A model generated the notes under the pieces. That model had not been told where the DNA came from and did no database searches. It saw nothing but the letters and a program-made list of their open reading frames with translations. A DNA stretch of 64,000 nt, taken from Halobacteriovorax sp. (lineage in GTDB: Bacteria; Bdellovibrionota; Bacteriovoracia; Bacteriovoracales; Bacteriovoracaceae). Both the position numbers and the translations under genes were made by a program. This document shows, one piece after another, positions 1,324 through 7,924 of the stretch; position 1 is the first letter of the stretch, and every line of letters begins with the position of its first letter. The DNA lies in contig PBIO01000018.1 of the NCBI GenBank assembly GCA_002720865.1, positions 62,001 through 126,000 of the forward strand, written 5' to 3'.

Positions 1324-1695
1324 ATGGCCATTACAGGAATAAGAAGCTTTCACTACTCCACCAATAAGCTAGAAGAGGCTAAGAAATTTTATATAGAGGC
1401 CCTAGGCTTTGAGTTAGATTATGAGCAACCTGGTTGGTGCGCTTTAAAAATGGGCGGCGTGCAAGTTGCTCTTCACCCTGAAGAAGAACCTATTCCTGAA
1501 GTACCTAGAGACTCCCATGGACCAATGACAGGCGGCTGCTTAACTCTTAAGTCAGATAATATTCCAGAGGACAAAGCATTACTTGAAAAGCATGGGGCAA
1601 AAATTTTGGGAGATAATGATATGCCCTGGGGGCATATGCTTGTTTTTGAAGATCTAGATAAGAACGTTCTGATTCTTATGAATGCAAAATACTAG
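1324..1695 (+). CDS. VOC/glyoxalase-fold family protein
   Basis: This is a 123-residue single-unit vicinal-oxygen-chelate protein. The usual landmarks are present: an N-terminal beta strand with histidine (RSFHYSTN), the helix leading to FYIEALGFEL, a central VALHPEE strand, and the C-terminal MLVFEDLDKN motif followed by the last strand. Family members bind a divalent metal with His/Glu residues and act as lyases, isomerases, dioxygenases or resistance proteins. The substrate cannot be told from the sequence. It probably works as a dimer in the cytoplasm. It follows the membrane protein gene by 14 bases. Its TAG stop overlaps the stop of the convergent transpeptidase in a CTAG. Confidence 0.85.
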   Translation: MAITGIRSFHYSTNKLEEAKKFYIEALGFELDYEQPGWCALKMGGVQVALHPEEEPIPEVPRDSHGPMTGGCLTLKSDNIPEDKALLEKHGAKILGDNDMPWGHMLVFEDLDKNVLILMNAKY

Positions 1696-2399
1696 ATAGA
1701 ACAAACGTTTTTCCAATTCGGTATTTCTGTTAAGATTTTTTTCATATCATCAGCACATTTTGGCGTATAAGAATAATAAAGAGCTCCGTCTTTTAGGGCA
1801 TCTGCTACGCTTCTAAACTCGTCGGGGTGAAAGGCAGGACATCCATAACTTCTTCCCATTTGATCACCTTGGTTATACCAAGCTCCATGCATAACGACAC
1901 CATTAGATTTAGCTTTGTCATTAACGCCTTTATTTAGACCATCCATCCGAATACCATTATGACCGTTTGGATACCCACTTCCAAGATAAGGCCAACCATA
2001 AACTAGTCTACCATTTTTATCTCTAAACTCTCCATGGGAGCAACCATACTTTGGTTTTCCGTATATCTTTACATGTTTTTTATAGTTGTCAGATGTACAG
2101 CCTCCAGAAGAAGCGTAGGTATTTTCAACCTTAAAAAAGCCTGGTCTTGTGGCATTGGTTCTTGTTCCATTAGATCTTTTGCAGGTATTAAAAACTCCAG
2201 AGTTATGACTCCCTTTATCGCTAGTTCTACCGTGAGATATTTTTCTACCAACAACTTCTCCAGTATAAAGATCAATTTGCATAGACCTTACTTTAGTGGC
2301 AGTTTGCGAATAATCTGCAATCATCATATATCTAGGGTTCCCTTTAAAAGTTCCAGCATACTTTTTTCTATAAGCAAAAGCTTGCTTTACAGAGTCCAT
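1692..2399 (-). CDS. YkuD_2-type L,D-transpeptidase catalytic domain (probably 3' part of a frameshifted gene)
   Basis: The catalytic half of a murein L,D-transpeptidase of the YkuD_2 kind, a family that makes or edits 3-3 peptidoglycan cross-links using an active-site cysteine. The signature is visible as VVMHGAWY followed about 14 residues later by RSYGCPAF, giving the His and Cys. The frame begins at ATG 2399, has no signal peptide, and starts in the middle of the family's N-terminal helix. The missing secretion signal lies in the ORF immediately upstream (2401-2643), in another frame. Removing one A from an A8 run joins the two smoothly. A second, intact YkuD_2 protein in this window (47265-47921) shows the normal layout. 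The gene could be an inactivated pseudogene, use slippage, or reflect a base-calling error. Confidence 0.75.
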   Translation of the reverse strand: MDSVKQAFAYRKKYAGTFKGNPRYMMIADYSQTATKVRSMQIDLYTGEVVGRKISHGRTSDKGSHNSGVFNTCKRSNGTRTNATRPGFFKVENTYASSGGCTSDNYKKHVKIYGKPKYGCSHGEFRDKNGRLVYGWPYLGSGYPNGHNGIRMDGLNKGVNDKAKSNGVVMHGAWYNQGDQMGRSYGCPAFHPDEFRSVADALKDGALYYSYTPKCADDMKKILTEIPNWKNVCSI

Positions 2400-2400
2400 A

Positions 2401-2643
2401 TCAAATTTTGAATTTATTTTTTTTAATATTCCTCAAGGCTTTTGAATAAATTTTGCAGGGGTCATTATTCATATTCTTAACAACTTCTCCAGAACTTCCG
2501 GCCAAGTAGATCGCCTCTTTCGAGGTGCTTTGAAGTTCTTCGACACATTGAAGTTCAGCTTCAGCATTCTCGTTTTGATCTTCAGCAAAAATTACTGGTT
2601 GAGTAATAAAAAGTAATGATAGGGCGATGGCTATTTTTCTCAT
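2401..2643 (-). CDS. Signal-peptide-bearing N-terminal part of the split YkuD_2 gene
   Basis: An 80-residue ORF beginning with a clean signal peptide (MRKIAIALSLLF..VIFA) and ending at TGA 2401-2403, one base before the ATG of the transpeptidase ORF. The coding sequence passes an A8 run (T8 at 2417-2424 on the + strand). With seven As the reading frame would continue as ..KKINSKFDMDSVKQAF and run into the catalytic domain, giving one secreted protein of about 316 residues with the expected YkuD_2 architecture. It has two cysteines (residues 33 and 62). Alone it has no recognisable function. It is best read as the 5' portion of a disrupted or slippage-decoded gene. Confidence 0.6.
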   Translation of the reverse strand: MRKIAIALSLLFITQPVIFAEDQNENAEAELQCVEELQSTSKEAIYLAGSSGEVVKNMNNDPCKIYSKALRNIKKNKFKI

Positions 2644-2816: not shown

Positions 2817-3104
2817 TTAGTCACGACATGAATACTTTACGTATGCTGTCCATTGCTTCTCAAGTTCACCATGACGGTTTACTCTATAGCTCATTCCGTT
2901 TACACCAGCGGCGTAAACTTTGGCTCTTGAACTGCAGTTATGAGGTCTAAGTCTTCCTCTTTTAATATCTTCTACAGCGTCCATCATTTTAGCTTCTACG
3001 TCAGCTTGGCTGATTCTGCTAAATAGAGTGTGTACACCTGTTACAGTTTCTGCAAATAGTGAAGTTGTTGCAAGTAATGCGAATACCATAATTAATTTTT
3101 TCAT
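2817..3104 (-). CDS. Small secreted two-cysteine protein, paralog A
   Basis: A 95-residue secreted protein with signal peptide MKKLIMVFALLATTSLFA. It is clearly related to the proteins at 4959-5246 and 4612-4962. Shared features are an amphipathic helix with acidic residues, then G-R-x-R-x-PH, a first cysteine, a VYA..V.G segment, an YRVNRxGELE segment, and a final KYSC. The two mature cysteines probably form one disulfide. I know no function for this family. It has its own terminator and a good Shine-Dalgarno (AAAGGAGAAAG). It is divergent from the TIGR02147 regulator, with a spaced direct-repeat motif between them that recurs upstream of paralog C. Confidence 0.75.
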   Translation of the reverse strand: MKKLIMVFALLATTSLFAETVTGVHTLFSRISQADVEAKMMDAVEDIKRGRLRPHNCSSRAKVYAAGVNGMSYRVNRHGELEKQWTAYVKYSCRD

Positions 3105-3201
3105 TGTCTTTCTCCTTTTAAGAAAAGTTCGTTTGTTGTTGAGACATTTGTAGCTTTGTGGATTTGAAAGAACAATTTCATATGAGAAATGCCGAACGAA
3201 T

Positions 3202-3223
3202 CTGTACCTTTTTGTGTACGCTA
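3202..3223. promoter_or_regulatory. Spaced direct-repeat motif, copy 1 (possible operator)
   Basis: The sequence is ctgtac-N6-gtgtac followed by gcta. The same arrangement, gtgtac-N6-gtgtac-acta with TTT at the same spacer position, occurs at 5329-5350. Both copies lie about 85-120 bases upstream of a paralogous small secreted gene on the minus strand. This copy is also about 130 bases upstream of the TIGR02147 regulator, so it could serve both directions. That it binds a regulator is inference. Confidence 0.45.
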
Positions 3224-3303
3224 GTTAGTTCGTCACCATAAATATCACTACGCCAAACCACTTGATTTCAGGTAACTTTACTTAAGATTCGTCGTCACTA
3301 TTT

Positions 3304-3330
3304 TTGACAGCAAATCTAGTTTTTTATAAT
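3304..3330 (+). promoter_or_regulatory. Sigma-70-type promoter of the TIGR02147 regulator
   Basis: TTGACA at 3304-3309 and TATAAT at 3325-3330 are perfect matches to the -35 and -10 hexamers, but the spacer is 15 bases, shorter than the optimal 17. It lies 25 bases upstream of the ATG at 3356, with a purine-rich AAAGAGAG in between as ribosome-binding site. Confidence 0.55.
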
Positions 3331-3355
3331 TTCAGCTCTATAAAGAGAGTACAGA

Positions 3356-4201
3356 ATGAATGAACAGATAGATTTACTTCCAGATATTAGGGCTTACTCC
3401 GATTATAGAGTTTTCCTTAAAGATTTTTTCGAGCATAAGAAAAAGGAGAACTCTAATTATAGTCATCGAGTCTTTATTAGAAAGGCTCAAATGAGTTCAC
3501 CTAGCCATTTAAAAATGGTCATTGATGGAAAAAGAAACCTAACAGGTAAAACAATAAAGAAATATATCACCGCGATTGGTCTCAAAAAGAAGGAAGCTAG
3601 TTTTTTCTCTTTATTAGTAAATTATAACCAAGAGCAAAACCACGAAGAGAAAATCGGTCTTTTCCAAGAAATTATGCAAGAAAGAAGAAAGAAGGGTCTA
3701 TCAGATATAGAGGAGGCCCAGTATGACTTTCTTTCTAAATGGCATTATGTAGCGATCTATTGTTTATTGGATCTAAAGGACTTTAAGAATGACCCTTCCT
3801 GGATTACTTCAAAAATAAAGAAAAAGGTTTCAACTCAAAATATAGAGAAGGCCTTAAGTGAACTTAGAAGGCTTGGGCTTATAAAAGAAAATGAAGATGG
3901 AAACCTCGTACAAACAAATGGTCCACTCGATACGACAGACGATGTTCAGAACTTAGCATTTAAAACTTACCATAAAAATATGTCAGAGCTTGCAATTCAC
4001 TCATTAGAAAATGAAGATGCTTTAAACAGAGAATTTAATGGTGTAACGATTCCCATTGATACAAAAAATATGGGAAAAATAAAGGACATGATCCGTGCCT
4101 TCAGAAAAGAGCTAAATGAAGTTGCAAGTAATATGGATGAGCCGAATGAGGTATATCAAATGAATATTCAATTTTTTCCCTTAACTGAGGTTGATAAATG
4201 A
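3356..4201 (+). CDS. TIGR02147 family (DUF4423) protein, putative regulator
   Basis: A 281-residue protein of the TIGR02147/DUF4423 type, a family expanded in Bdellovibrionota and Fibrobacter and thought to be DNA-binding. Landmarks are the N-terminal YSDYRVFLKDFFEHKK helix, the SHRVFIRKAQMSSPSHLKMV helix-turn-helix-like segment, KNLTGKTIKKYITAIGL-like spacing, the central DFLSKWHYVAIYCLLDL, and a C-terminal winged part with ALSELRRLGLIKE. No signal peptide or membrane segment. Its ATGA stop/start overlap couples it to the downstream secreted protein gene. The family is widely seen beside small secreted proteins. What it senses is unknown. Confidence 0.85.
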   Translation: MNEQIDLLPDIRAYSDYRVFLKDFFEHKKKENSNYSHRVFIRKAQMSSPSHLKMVIDGKRNLTGKTIKKYITAIGLKKKEASFFSLLVNYNQEQNHEEKIGLFQEIMQERRKKGLSDIEEAQYDFLSKWHYVAIYCLLDLKDFKNDPSWITSKIKKKVSTQNIEKALSELRRLGLIKENEDGNLVQTNGPLDTTDDVQNLAFKTYHKNMSELAIHSLENEDALNREFNGVTIPIDTKNMGKIKDMIRAFRKELNEVASNMDEPNEVYQMNIQFFPLTEVDK

Positions 4202-4599
4202 AAGCGAAAATTATTTCTATAGGTATTCTGTCCTTACTTACAACTTCAGCTTATGCAGCTCTAGGTGGGGTTGGTGTTGGAAATAGCCTTACTGTAGCAG
4301 GATTAAACATAGCAAATGGCTTTAAAACCAAAGAAGAAGCTATTGCCCATTTAAAGAAACTTGCCACCGAAATAAATCAAGGTAAGTCCTCAGTCGTCAA
4401 TCGATATATAGCTGAGGGGAACTGTAAAAAATCTTATAGTAGCTTTAGCGGCGCGGATTTTTATGATCTCTATCCAATTGAAAAAGATAGTGTAAAAAGA
4501 ACGCTTCAATTAGCAGTACATGTAAAAGTTCATTTAAAAGATTGTAAGAAAATTTCAAAGATCAAAGACGATCAACCTTTCGATGGGCCTAAGAAATAG
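4198..4599 (+). CDS. Small secreted protein coupled to the TIGR02147 gene, distant paralog D
   Basis: A 133-residue protein with signal peptide MKAKIISIGILSLLTTSAYA. Its ATG overlaps the regulator's stop (ATGA), so translation is coupled. After a glycine-rich N-terminus it follows the pattern of the neighbouring family: TKEEA.. amphipathic helix, a Gly-Lys at its end, one cysteine about 15 residues later, and a late strand ending HLKDC. It lacks the clear YRVNR segment, so the relationship to paralogs A-C is weak and rests on layout rather than identity. Function unknown. Placement with the regulator suggests it is either its target or a partner in the same response. Confidence 0.7.
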   Translation: MKAKIISIGILSLLTTSAYAALGGVGVGNSLTVAGLNIANGFKTKEEAIAHLKKLATEINQGKSSVVNRYIAEGNCKKSYSSFSGADFYDLYPIEKDSVKRTLQLAVHVKVHLKDCKKISKIKDDQPFDGPKK

Positions 4600-4605
4600 G
4601 CCCTT
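4585..4605. terminator. Possible bidirectional terminator hairpin
   Basis: GGGCCT / AGGCCC with a 7-base loop spans the stop codon of the 4198-4599 gene, 12 bases from the stop of the convergent gene. The T-tract is weak in both directions, so termination is only plausible. Confidence 0.4.
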
Positions 4606-4611
4606 GGTTAA

Positions 4612-4962
4612 TTAATCATCAGTATTATGGCTACATCTCTTGTGAGTTACGATAACCGTTGCCTGTTTAAATGATTCAAGCTCGTAAAAACGATTAACTC
4701 GATAAGCTTTTTTCACCGTAAGGGTTTTTACATCAATATATTTAGGTTTTGTGAAGTTGCAGCCCTTTGATTCATATAAGAGTCGTATCGGTTGATGAGG
4801 ATAGCGATATTTCCCGTTTTTTAAACCTGGGATAGCGTCGTCAACTTTATCGAGAACCTCTTCATTAGTTTCTCCTTTGAATTTAACATAAAACTTCCGA
4901 GTTCCCGCAGAAGCATTTGAAGCAAAAGCAATTAAAACTAAAAGAATAACAATCGATTTCAT
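4612..4962 (-). CDS. Small secreted two-cysteine protein, paralog B
   Basis: A 116-residue protein with signal peptide MKSIVILLVLIAFASNASA. The mature part has the family pattern: TNEEVLDKVDDAI helix, NGKYRYPHQ, a cysteine (KGCNF), an AYRVNRFYELESF segment matching paralog A almost residue for residue, then a strand ending HKRC. It is longer than paralogs A and C because of extra residues around the first cysteine. Its ATG overlaps the stop of paralog C by 4 bases (ATGA type), so the two form a coupled operon. Function unknown. Confidence 0.7.
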   Translation of the reverse strand: MKSIVILLVLIAFASNASAGTRKFYVKFKGETNEEVLDKVDDAIPGLKNGKYRYPHQPIRLLYESKGCNFTKPKYIDVKTLTVKKAYRVNRFYELESFKQATVIVTHKRCSHNTDD

Positions 4963-5246
4963 TCGTTACACCTATACTTTATAAAAGTTAAATAAAAAGG
5001 CTCCACATTTCCGTCTCTATCAGTTCTAAACCTTAGACCTGCGACTTCTACAGCGTAAACCCGTGCCTGTCCGTTACAGCTAAAATGAGGACCTCTGTAG
5101 CGTCCTTTTTTAACCAGTCTCATGATCTCTCTCACTTCAGGCTCAATTTGCTCTTCTGTATCTGTTCTAAGAAAGATCACACCAGTCTTCATTTCAGCAA
5201 TTGCCATAGAAGACCACAAAACTAAAATAGTTATGATTAACTTCAT
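4959..5246 (-). CDS. Small secreted two-cysteine protein, paralog C
   Basis: A 95-residue secreted protein with signal peptide MKLIITILVLWSSMAIA. It is the closest relative of paralog A: same length, same GRYRGPH, RVYAVEVAGLRFRTDRDGNVE and KYRC blocks, two mature cysteines. First gene of a two-gene operon with paralog B. Its promoter has a good -35/-10 pair with an inverted repeat in the spacer and the shared direct-repeat motif further upstream, so expression is probably regulated. No function is known to me. Confidence 0.75.
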   Translation of the reverse strand: MKLIITILVLWSSMAIAEMKTGVIFLRTDTEEQIEPEVREIMRLVKKGRYRGPHFSCNGQARVYAVEVAGLRFRTDRDGNVEPFYLTFIKYRCNE

Positions 5247-5328: not shown

Positions 5329-5350
5329 GTGTACTCATTTGTGTACACTA
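5329..5350. promoter_or_regulatory. Spaced direct-repeat motif, copy 2 (possible operator)
   Basis: gtgtac (5329-5334), six bases, gtgtac (5341-5346), acta. It matches the copy at 3202-3223 in spacing and in flanking CTA. It is 27 bases upstream of the -35 of the paralog C promoter, a position typical for an activator. Confidence 0.45.
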
Positions 5351-6952: not shown

Positions 6953-7645
6953 ATGTTTGGAAAATTTCTATGCTTATTCTTTTTTATCCTATCTTCCATA
7001 AGTTTATCGTACGCAGGACCTTTTGAAGACATTCAAAAAGCTGTTGAGAACGGTGACAAGGATACTGAGTTCACAATGGCGTTTTCAGATGGCTACGAGC
7101 AAAAGGTTAAAGGCCCGTTTGAGTTAATTAAATCTGATGTTACTTACCGCTGCCCATGTGCTGACTATACAATAGTTTTTACTGACGAAAACGGAAGACA
7201 AGAAAGAAAAATACATCATAAGCAGTTTGGCGGAAGAGTTGAGTACTACTCCAAGGACGGTAGCTCTAAATATGAACTCTCTTCGGTAAAGGAATCAAAT
7301 GGTGAGGCCAGTAAAGGTGGCTGCCACGGAGTTGGAGAACTTAAAAAGCTAGTCGTTAGAACTAAAAAGGTTCTCCCTAAAGACCAAAAGATGTGTCCAA
7401 AAAACGGTGTTACCACTTGTATGGGTGAAAAAATGCTTAAGTGTGAAGGTAGATTAAAATGTCGAGGTGATAAGAAATTTCCTGACGGAGAATTTGATGT
7501 TTACTGTATGGCCTCAGACTCTGATGGTTGCCCTAGCCCATATAAATGCGCCGAAGATGAGGCTTTTGATAAATATATTGCCGAAGCTAAAGCAGATGGT
7601 GCTAAGATTATAGAAGATAAAAATTCAACGACTAGAGGTAAATAG
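6953..7645 (+). CDS. Secreted cysteine-rich protein of unknown function
   Basis: A 230-residue protein with a signal peptide (MFGKFLCLFFFILSSISLSYA). I do not recognise a family. The mature protein has about ten cysteines, including YRCPCADY, GGCHG and several CxxxxxC-like pairs in the last third, so a disulfide-rich periplasmic or extracellular fold is likely. The N-terminal half looks like beta strands alternating with charged turns. Shine-Dalgarno GTGGAG precedes ATG 6953. The next small secreted gene starts directly after its stop, forming a two-gene operon closed by a strong terminator. Confidence 0.65.
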   Translation: MFGKFLCLFFFILSSISLSYAGPFEDIQKAVENGDKDTEFTMAFSDGYEQKVKGPFELIKSDVTYRCPCADYTIVFTDENGRQERKIHHKQFGGRVEYYSKDGSSKYELSSVKESNGEASKGGCHGVGELKKLVVRTKKVLPKDQKMCPKNGVTTCMGEKMLKCEGRLKCRGDKKFPDGEFDVYCMASDSDGCPSPYKCAEDEAFDKYIAEAKADGAKIIEDKNSTTRGK

Positions 7646-7924
7646 ATGAAGTCAATAATTGGAGTTTTTGCTTTTGTAGTTTTTACGAGCCCATCATTTG
7701 CATACATGGAGAATGTTAATAAGATCGACCTCAAAGAAAAAAAGGCCTTAAAAACAATGACCGTTGATAAAGCCTCTTTAGTAATGTTCGAGCAATATAT
7801 GTCTAAGAAGAAAAAATATAACGGTAAAGACTCTTATGCGATGAACTTTATCTGTAAGAAAGTTAATAAAGATACAAAATGTAATTTAGTTGAATATGAG
7901 ATATTGAAAAAAGAAACAAGATAA
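7646..7924 (+). CDS. Small secreted protein of unknown function
   Basis: A 92-residue protein with a signal peptide (MKSIIGVFAFVVFTSPSFA) and a lysine-rich mature part containing two cysteines near the C-terminus (FICKKV and TKCNLV). The start codon follows the previous gene's stop with no gap. AGAGG in the end of that gene is the likely ribosome-binding site, so translation is coupled. No family is recognised. Confidence 0.6.
   Translation: MKSIIGVFAFVVFTSPSFAYMENVNKIDLKEKKALKTMTVDKASLVMFEQYMSKKKKYNGKDSYAMNFICKKVNKDTKCNLVEYEILKKETR

Follow-up and report, generated by a model that had tools for sequence, protein, structure and literature searches.

The stretch of Halobacteriovorax DNA analyzed here (64,000 nucleotides, referred to below as the window) contains what is probably a self-contained regulon module, in which a TIGR02147 regulator would set the levels of small predicted-exported proteins of two types, a tagged type B and an untagged type A, through an 18-bp palindrome. 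As judged from comparative sequence analysis, the regulator of this clade very likely binds the palindrome, and it is highly probable that types A and B represent its output. If so, this would give a first handle on TIGR02147, namely a predicted operator and regulon in one clade and a tagged-partner rule in several phyla, both of which are testable in cultured predators.

Organization of the locus and the TIGR02147 regulator

The four small-protein genes and the regulator gene were all found at the positions given in the initial annotation. The first type A gene (2817–3104, minus strand) encodes a small predicted-exported two-cysteine protein of 95 aa (P0001; family profile A3; orthologs in G001 and G002) and is divergent from the regulator gene (3356–4201, plus strand). 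The latter overlaps the type B gene (P0004; 4198–4599, plus strand) by four nucleotides (ATGA, 4198–4201), as had been claimed, and the mature N-terminus of the type B product, ALGGVGVGNS, bears the partner motif described below. Two further type A paralogs, identified by direct comparison and profile, lie on the minus strand at 4959–5246 (P0003, 95 aa) and 4612–4962 (P0002, 116 aa) and are likewise coupled to each other by ATGA. A perfect copy of the candidate operator (TGTACTCATTTGTGTACA) is located at 5330–5347, 83 nt upstream of the gene at 4959–5246. Another candidate copy (CGTACACAAAAAGGTACA, minus strand) at 3203–3220 matches at 12 of 16 positions, which equals the background score; its orthologous copies score 14 (G001) and 13 (G002). 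The gene order of the module is kept in the orthologous loci of these two relatives, which belong to the same genus, and chance is ruled out as the origin of the arrangement of family and regulator.

The assignment of the central gene to TIGR02147 held firmly: its product scored far above the curated cut-off against TIGR02147 (Fsuc_second) over the full length (residues 9–278, E 1.6e-72, 244.3 bits, cut-off 50) and also matched Pfam DUF4423 (E 4e-43, 147.5 bits, cut-off 30). The AlphaFold model of the regulator (pLDDT 91.3) combines an XRE/HigA-like HTH (residues about 14–98) with a MarR/ArsR-like winged helix (117–191); the former resembled XRE-type repressors such as HigA (Z about 8), the latter MarR/ArsR/HxlR proteins (Z about 7.5), both likenesses being readable at the level of domain class only. 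TIGR02147 genes were present in 98 of the 114 sampled Bdellovibrionota genomes, with up to 19 per genome. The TIGR02147 and DUF4423 entries in the searched libraries give neither function nor partner, and none of the papers searched names TIGR02147. A single lead comes from Bd3700 of Bdellovibrio bacteriovorus, a different member of the DUF4423 family, which one proteome study counts among the proteins upregulated while this species grows in prey (PMC12546842).

A family of small two-cysteine proteins

The kinship proposed for the three type A proteins was evident from direct pairwise comparison, with 33% identity between P0001 and P0003 (E 1e-17) and a more distant match between P0001 and P0002 (E 1e-6), each value coming from a single comparison. 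The weak likeness suspected for the regulator-coupled product proved to reflect a distant yet genuine membership: the type A and type B subfamilies aligned significantly in hhalign (E 3e-6, probability 88%), and both cysteine columns were invariant across 46 aligned members of the two types. The first round of profile iteration retained the signal peptides, which drew unrelated exported proteins into the profile, and so the iteration was redone without them. The profiles seeded with either A or B then converged on practically the same set (118 and 117 ORFs, respectively, with 117 in common). By sequence, types A and B are thus placed in one superfamily. Its description as a new family agrees with the Pfam and NCBIfam searches, in which no family covered the A/B proteins (46 members compared with Pfam), and no relative with a solved structure was found by sequence. 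Two weak signals were discarded. The Pfam model Arm-DNA-bind_4 matched P0004 below the cut-off (E 2e-4) over a short helical stretch and was seen in two of the 46 members only, and the weak matches of P0001 on C30 and C31 of its own genome received no support from the mature-only profiles.

A confident AlphaFold model (pLDDT 90.6) was obtained for type A and has a beta-alpha-beta-beta order, probably closed in the A/B proteins by one putative disulfide. Export via the Sec pathway is predicted from a signal-peptide heuristic and from reading of the N-termini; the heuristic is loose, passing 58% of the other genes in these loci compared with 95% of the partners, and the statistics given below therefore rest on the tag and not on the signal peptide.

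Several known small proteins resemble the family in part. Dodecins are similar to type A in size and order of secondary structure elements and gave the top Foldseek rows for its model, but with TM 0.4–0.5 and E 0.06 or worse, while their VIA Z of 5.5–5.6 equaled that of the ribosomal proteins S10/S6. Since the dodecin and S6/S10-like fold matches were all weak, they indicate a common arrangement only. In contrast to dodecins, the A/B proteins have two invariant cysteines and are predicted to be exported, which argues against a dodecin-like cytosolic location, and a dodecin identity was considered unsupported. The DUF1471 (YhcN/BhsA/McbA) proteins are also exported. They are small proteins of unknown function from Enterobacteriaceae, with several paralogs per genome, as in the A/B family, and with roles in stress (PMC4092069); none of the 46 members matched DUF1471 at E 0.01 in Pfam. 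Another small predator protein, Bd0108 from the hit locus of Bdellovibrio, is tied to signaling (PMC3818213) and was reported to be intrinsically disordered (PMC4267844), whereas the A/B proteins are predicted to be folded.

Distribution of the module in Bdellovibrionota

Among 369 genomes of the phylum, type A was detected in 24 and type B in 23 at E 1e-3, and 21 genomes had both (p about 6e-29 for the co-occurrence). The module recurred in about 20 Bdellovibrionota genomes belonging to two families of the phylum (f1 and f11), including Halobacteriovorax, Bacteriovoracaceae and MAGs of Bdellovibrionales. Most commonly, type A was divergent from the regulator-B pair, with variants in which A was located upstream on the same strand (one genus) or behind B (others), and in nearly all cases type B followed the regulator with a 4-nt overlap. 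The genome of origin contains two modules, one in the window and another at the beginning of contig C32 (L045, 1–2013), which consists of A (210–542), regulator (761–1600) and B (1597–2013) and has, in the interval separating A from the regulator, the perfect dyad AGTGTTCACGGCCGTGAACACT.

Each regulator of the clade that was checked had a family member coupled behind it, so that the co-occurrence with TIGR02147 genes, about which the initial annotation had asked, was found, and TIGR02147 genes outside of the clade had no A/B member adjoining. In a quick tree, the regulators with an A/B partner formed a single group (support 80), and the A/B partner corresponded to one change on the tree, a value as low as this being reached in none of 500 shuffles. 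In L164 (601–4000), a regulator just outside of the clade was followed by two large exported proteins in tandem, both with GGVDVGNG and neither belonging to the A/B family; the partner domain behind this tag may have been swapped here.

A palindrome shared by the module genes

An 18-bp palindrome, TGTWCWCANNTGWGWACA (TGTWCWCA-NN-TGWGWACA), was present upstream of most module genes. The A genes share it with those regulators from which no A is divergent, and it usually lies 85–120 nt ahead of the start codon. A best score of at least 14/16 was reached in 22 of 40 A and regulator upstream regions and in 1 of 223 control upstream regions. The consensus was derived from the same sequences that were later scored, while the scan of whole genomes is largely independent of them: the seven perfect copies of the palindrome present in ten genomes (about 38 Mb) were all located at the module, one of them being the copy at 5330–5347 of the window. 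This makes direct control of the small proteins by the regulator the most likely reading. In its own genome (4.9 Mb), the window copy was the sole match with at most one mismatch.

Most of the A genes standing alone, with the regulator or type B elsewhere in the genome, also carried the palindrome (L117, L120, L122, L128, L130 and L143), some of them weakly. No good palindrome was seen at the module loci L133, L135 and L142, the latter being a stand-alone A gene. The palindrome was likewise absent upstream of the A genes in G046 and G130, the only high-quality genomes with A and without B, which have no intact clade regulator either. Of all observations, the distribution of the palindrome, including its absence upstream of these two A genes, speaks most strongly for direct control of the family by the regulator. 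The A gene of G046 (L038, 7353–7643) stands alone without an operator in a genome that keeps no more of the regulator than a stretch of 109 residues, and looks like a case of lost control.

A tag on the exported partners of TIGR02147 regulators

Genes coupled to TIGR02147 genes nearly always began with a signal peptide or a lipobox, very often with the short motif G-[TV]-[DE]-[TVI]-G-N-[GPA] or one of its variants directly behind it. The motif appeared as GGVDVGNG in the A/B family, as GTETGNP in lipoproteins of Myxococcota and Fibrobacterota and as GFEIGNG or GGEIGN elsewhere, and tagged coupled partners of TIGR02147 were found in Bdellovibrionota, Fibrobacterota and Myxococcota. The original proposal of a link between family and regulator stands as far as an undescribed family is tied to a TIGR02147 regulator, and was too narrow in that the coupling to tagged partners spans several phyla; an environmental or host-contact response, the role suggested there, may or may not apply. 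No published description of such coupling was found, and none of the papers searched names GTETGNP.

In the first set, with the regular expression built from its own loci, the tag was detected in 25 of 49 partners not belonging to the A/B family and in 1 of 429 other ORFs resembling signal-peptide proteins, the exception being a gene in second place of a tandem. Without further change, the expression was then run on 89 Bdellovibrionota regulators from a separate search, a few of which were identical or close to loci of the first set, so that this held-out set is not fully independent. A coupled gene was present in 63 of the 89 loci (at exactly -4 in 33 of them), and the tag was found in 29 of the 63 partners and in 1 of 244 neighbors, an aspartokinase. 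A broader expression gave 39/63 against 5/244 and was noisier, and hence the narrower version is reported. The latter missed the tag of the window type B protein, GGVGVGNS. None of the 26 held-out TIGR02147 genes without a coupled gene had a tagged neighbor, which means that the tag rule covers the coupled loci and not the whole family. In the genome of origin, two tagged genes lacked direct coupling, one being divergent (L053) and the other placed second in line (L047).

A reverse DNA scan of 13 genomes with G-T-x-[ATVI]-G-N-x produced 34 matches, of which 30 were inspected. All five tags located within the first 60 residues of signal-peptide ORFs followed a TIGR02147 gene, as did a sixth match, in an ORF whose start is uncertain; the other in-frame matches were internal, in cytosolic proteins (e.g. 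aspartokinase), or in doubtful ORFs. The 128 partners fell into 46 sequence clusters, mostly unrelated apart from the tag. Its codons vary freely, and a role as a DNA element was rejected. Some short partners (L248, 2321; L247, 1287; L252; L253) had the tag at least twice in tandem (GTEVGNGG...GTEVGNGG).

Proposed mechanism and alternatives

In the mechanism proposed here, the two-domain TIGR02147 regulator would bind the palindrome upstream of itself and of the genes for the small exported proteins and thereby set, by repression or activation, the amount of these proteins made. The A and B products would be single-domain, Sec-exported beta-alpha-beta-beta proteins, probably with one disulfide. 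Type B would be translated together with the regulator and carry its GG-x-x-VGN tag behind the signal peptide, and the type A members would form the untagged regulated output. Type B may, through its tag, feed back on the regulator, for instance by binding it before export, and the pair would thereby read the export or envelope state; this step is suggested tentatively. Just as speculative is its extension, according to which TIGR02147 regulators of several phyla might form an unrecognized class of regulator/export-substrate pairs matched by the tag. If true, gene expression would be tied to the fate of a coupled exported protein (its export, processing or surface delivery), and the window module would represent a branch where the tagged protein is joined by regulated paralogs that lack the tag and are under a shared operator.

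With somewhat less than even odds, the loci may be ordinary local autoregulated operons, in which TIGR02147 controls neighboring genes for envelope proteins while responding to some unrelated small ligand, and in which the role of the tag is confined to the structure of the partner. The operator in the divergent promoter and the shared regulon need nothing further, but such operons leave unexplained a tag common to 46 partner clusters in several phyla. The tag might also be a sorting signal for a dedicated route of surface export or processing, comparable to the lipoprotein export signals after the lipidated cysteine, with TIGR02147 regulating the cargo and no contact between tag and regulator. 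This possibility deserves to be taken seriously: the tag is situated at the mature N-terminus of lipoproteins as well as non-lipoproteins (with residue 26 as its median start) and is conserved at the protein level, with free codon use, on partners of so many clusters. However, exported proteins other than TIGR02147 partners almost never carry it, which is unexpected for a general signal, and this near confinement favors, without proving it, a link to the regulator.

The layout of an HTH regulator and an adjacent gene for a small exported protein is known from peptide-regulator pairs, and an HTH regulator next to the gene for a small partner, or coupled with it, is likewise seen in pairs of the HigA type, HigA being among the best HTH matches, and of the ComR/ComS type; the window pair differs from them in that no toxin and no TPR domain were seen and the partner is predicted to be exported. 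Peptide signaling of the RRNPP kind, with a released partner fragment sensed by the regulator in neighboring cells, would fit this layout and the conserved short stretch, but is very improbable, considering that in the model of the regulator the HTH is followed by a winged helix (117–191) and long helices (TM only about 0.2 to ComR and PrgX) and that in other clades the partner is a full-size protein with a length of up to several hundred residues.

Neighboring genes in the window

Ahead of the module, the gene for an exported L,D-transpeptidase (YkuD_2, PF13645, E 3e-23; 1692–2643, minus strand) is broken into two ORFs near position 2400, either by a frameshift or by an assembly error; in the relative G001 it is a single ORF of 316 aa (L035, 9259–10209). 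Beyond the module, at 6953–7924 on the plus strand, there are two adjacent genes for exported-looking proteins, the first encoding a cysteine-rich protein of 230 aa and the second a two-cysteine protein of 92 aa. The pair had no Pfam match and is kept in G001, where the same helicase gene precedes it.
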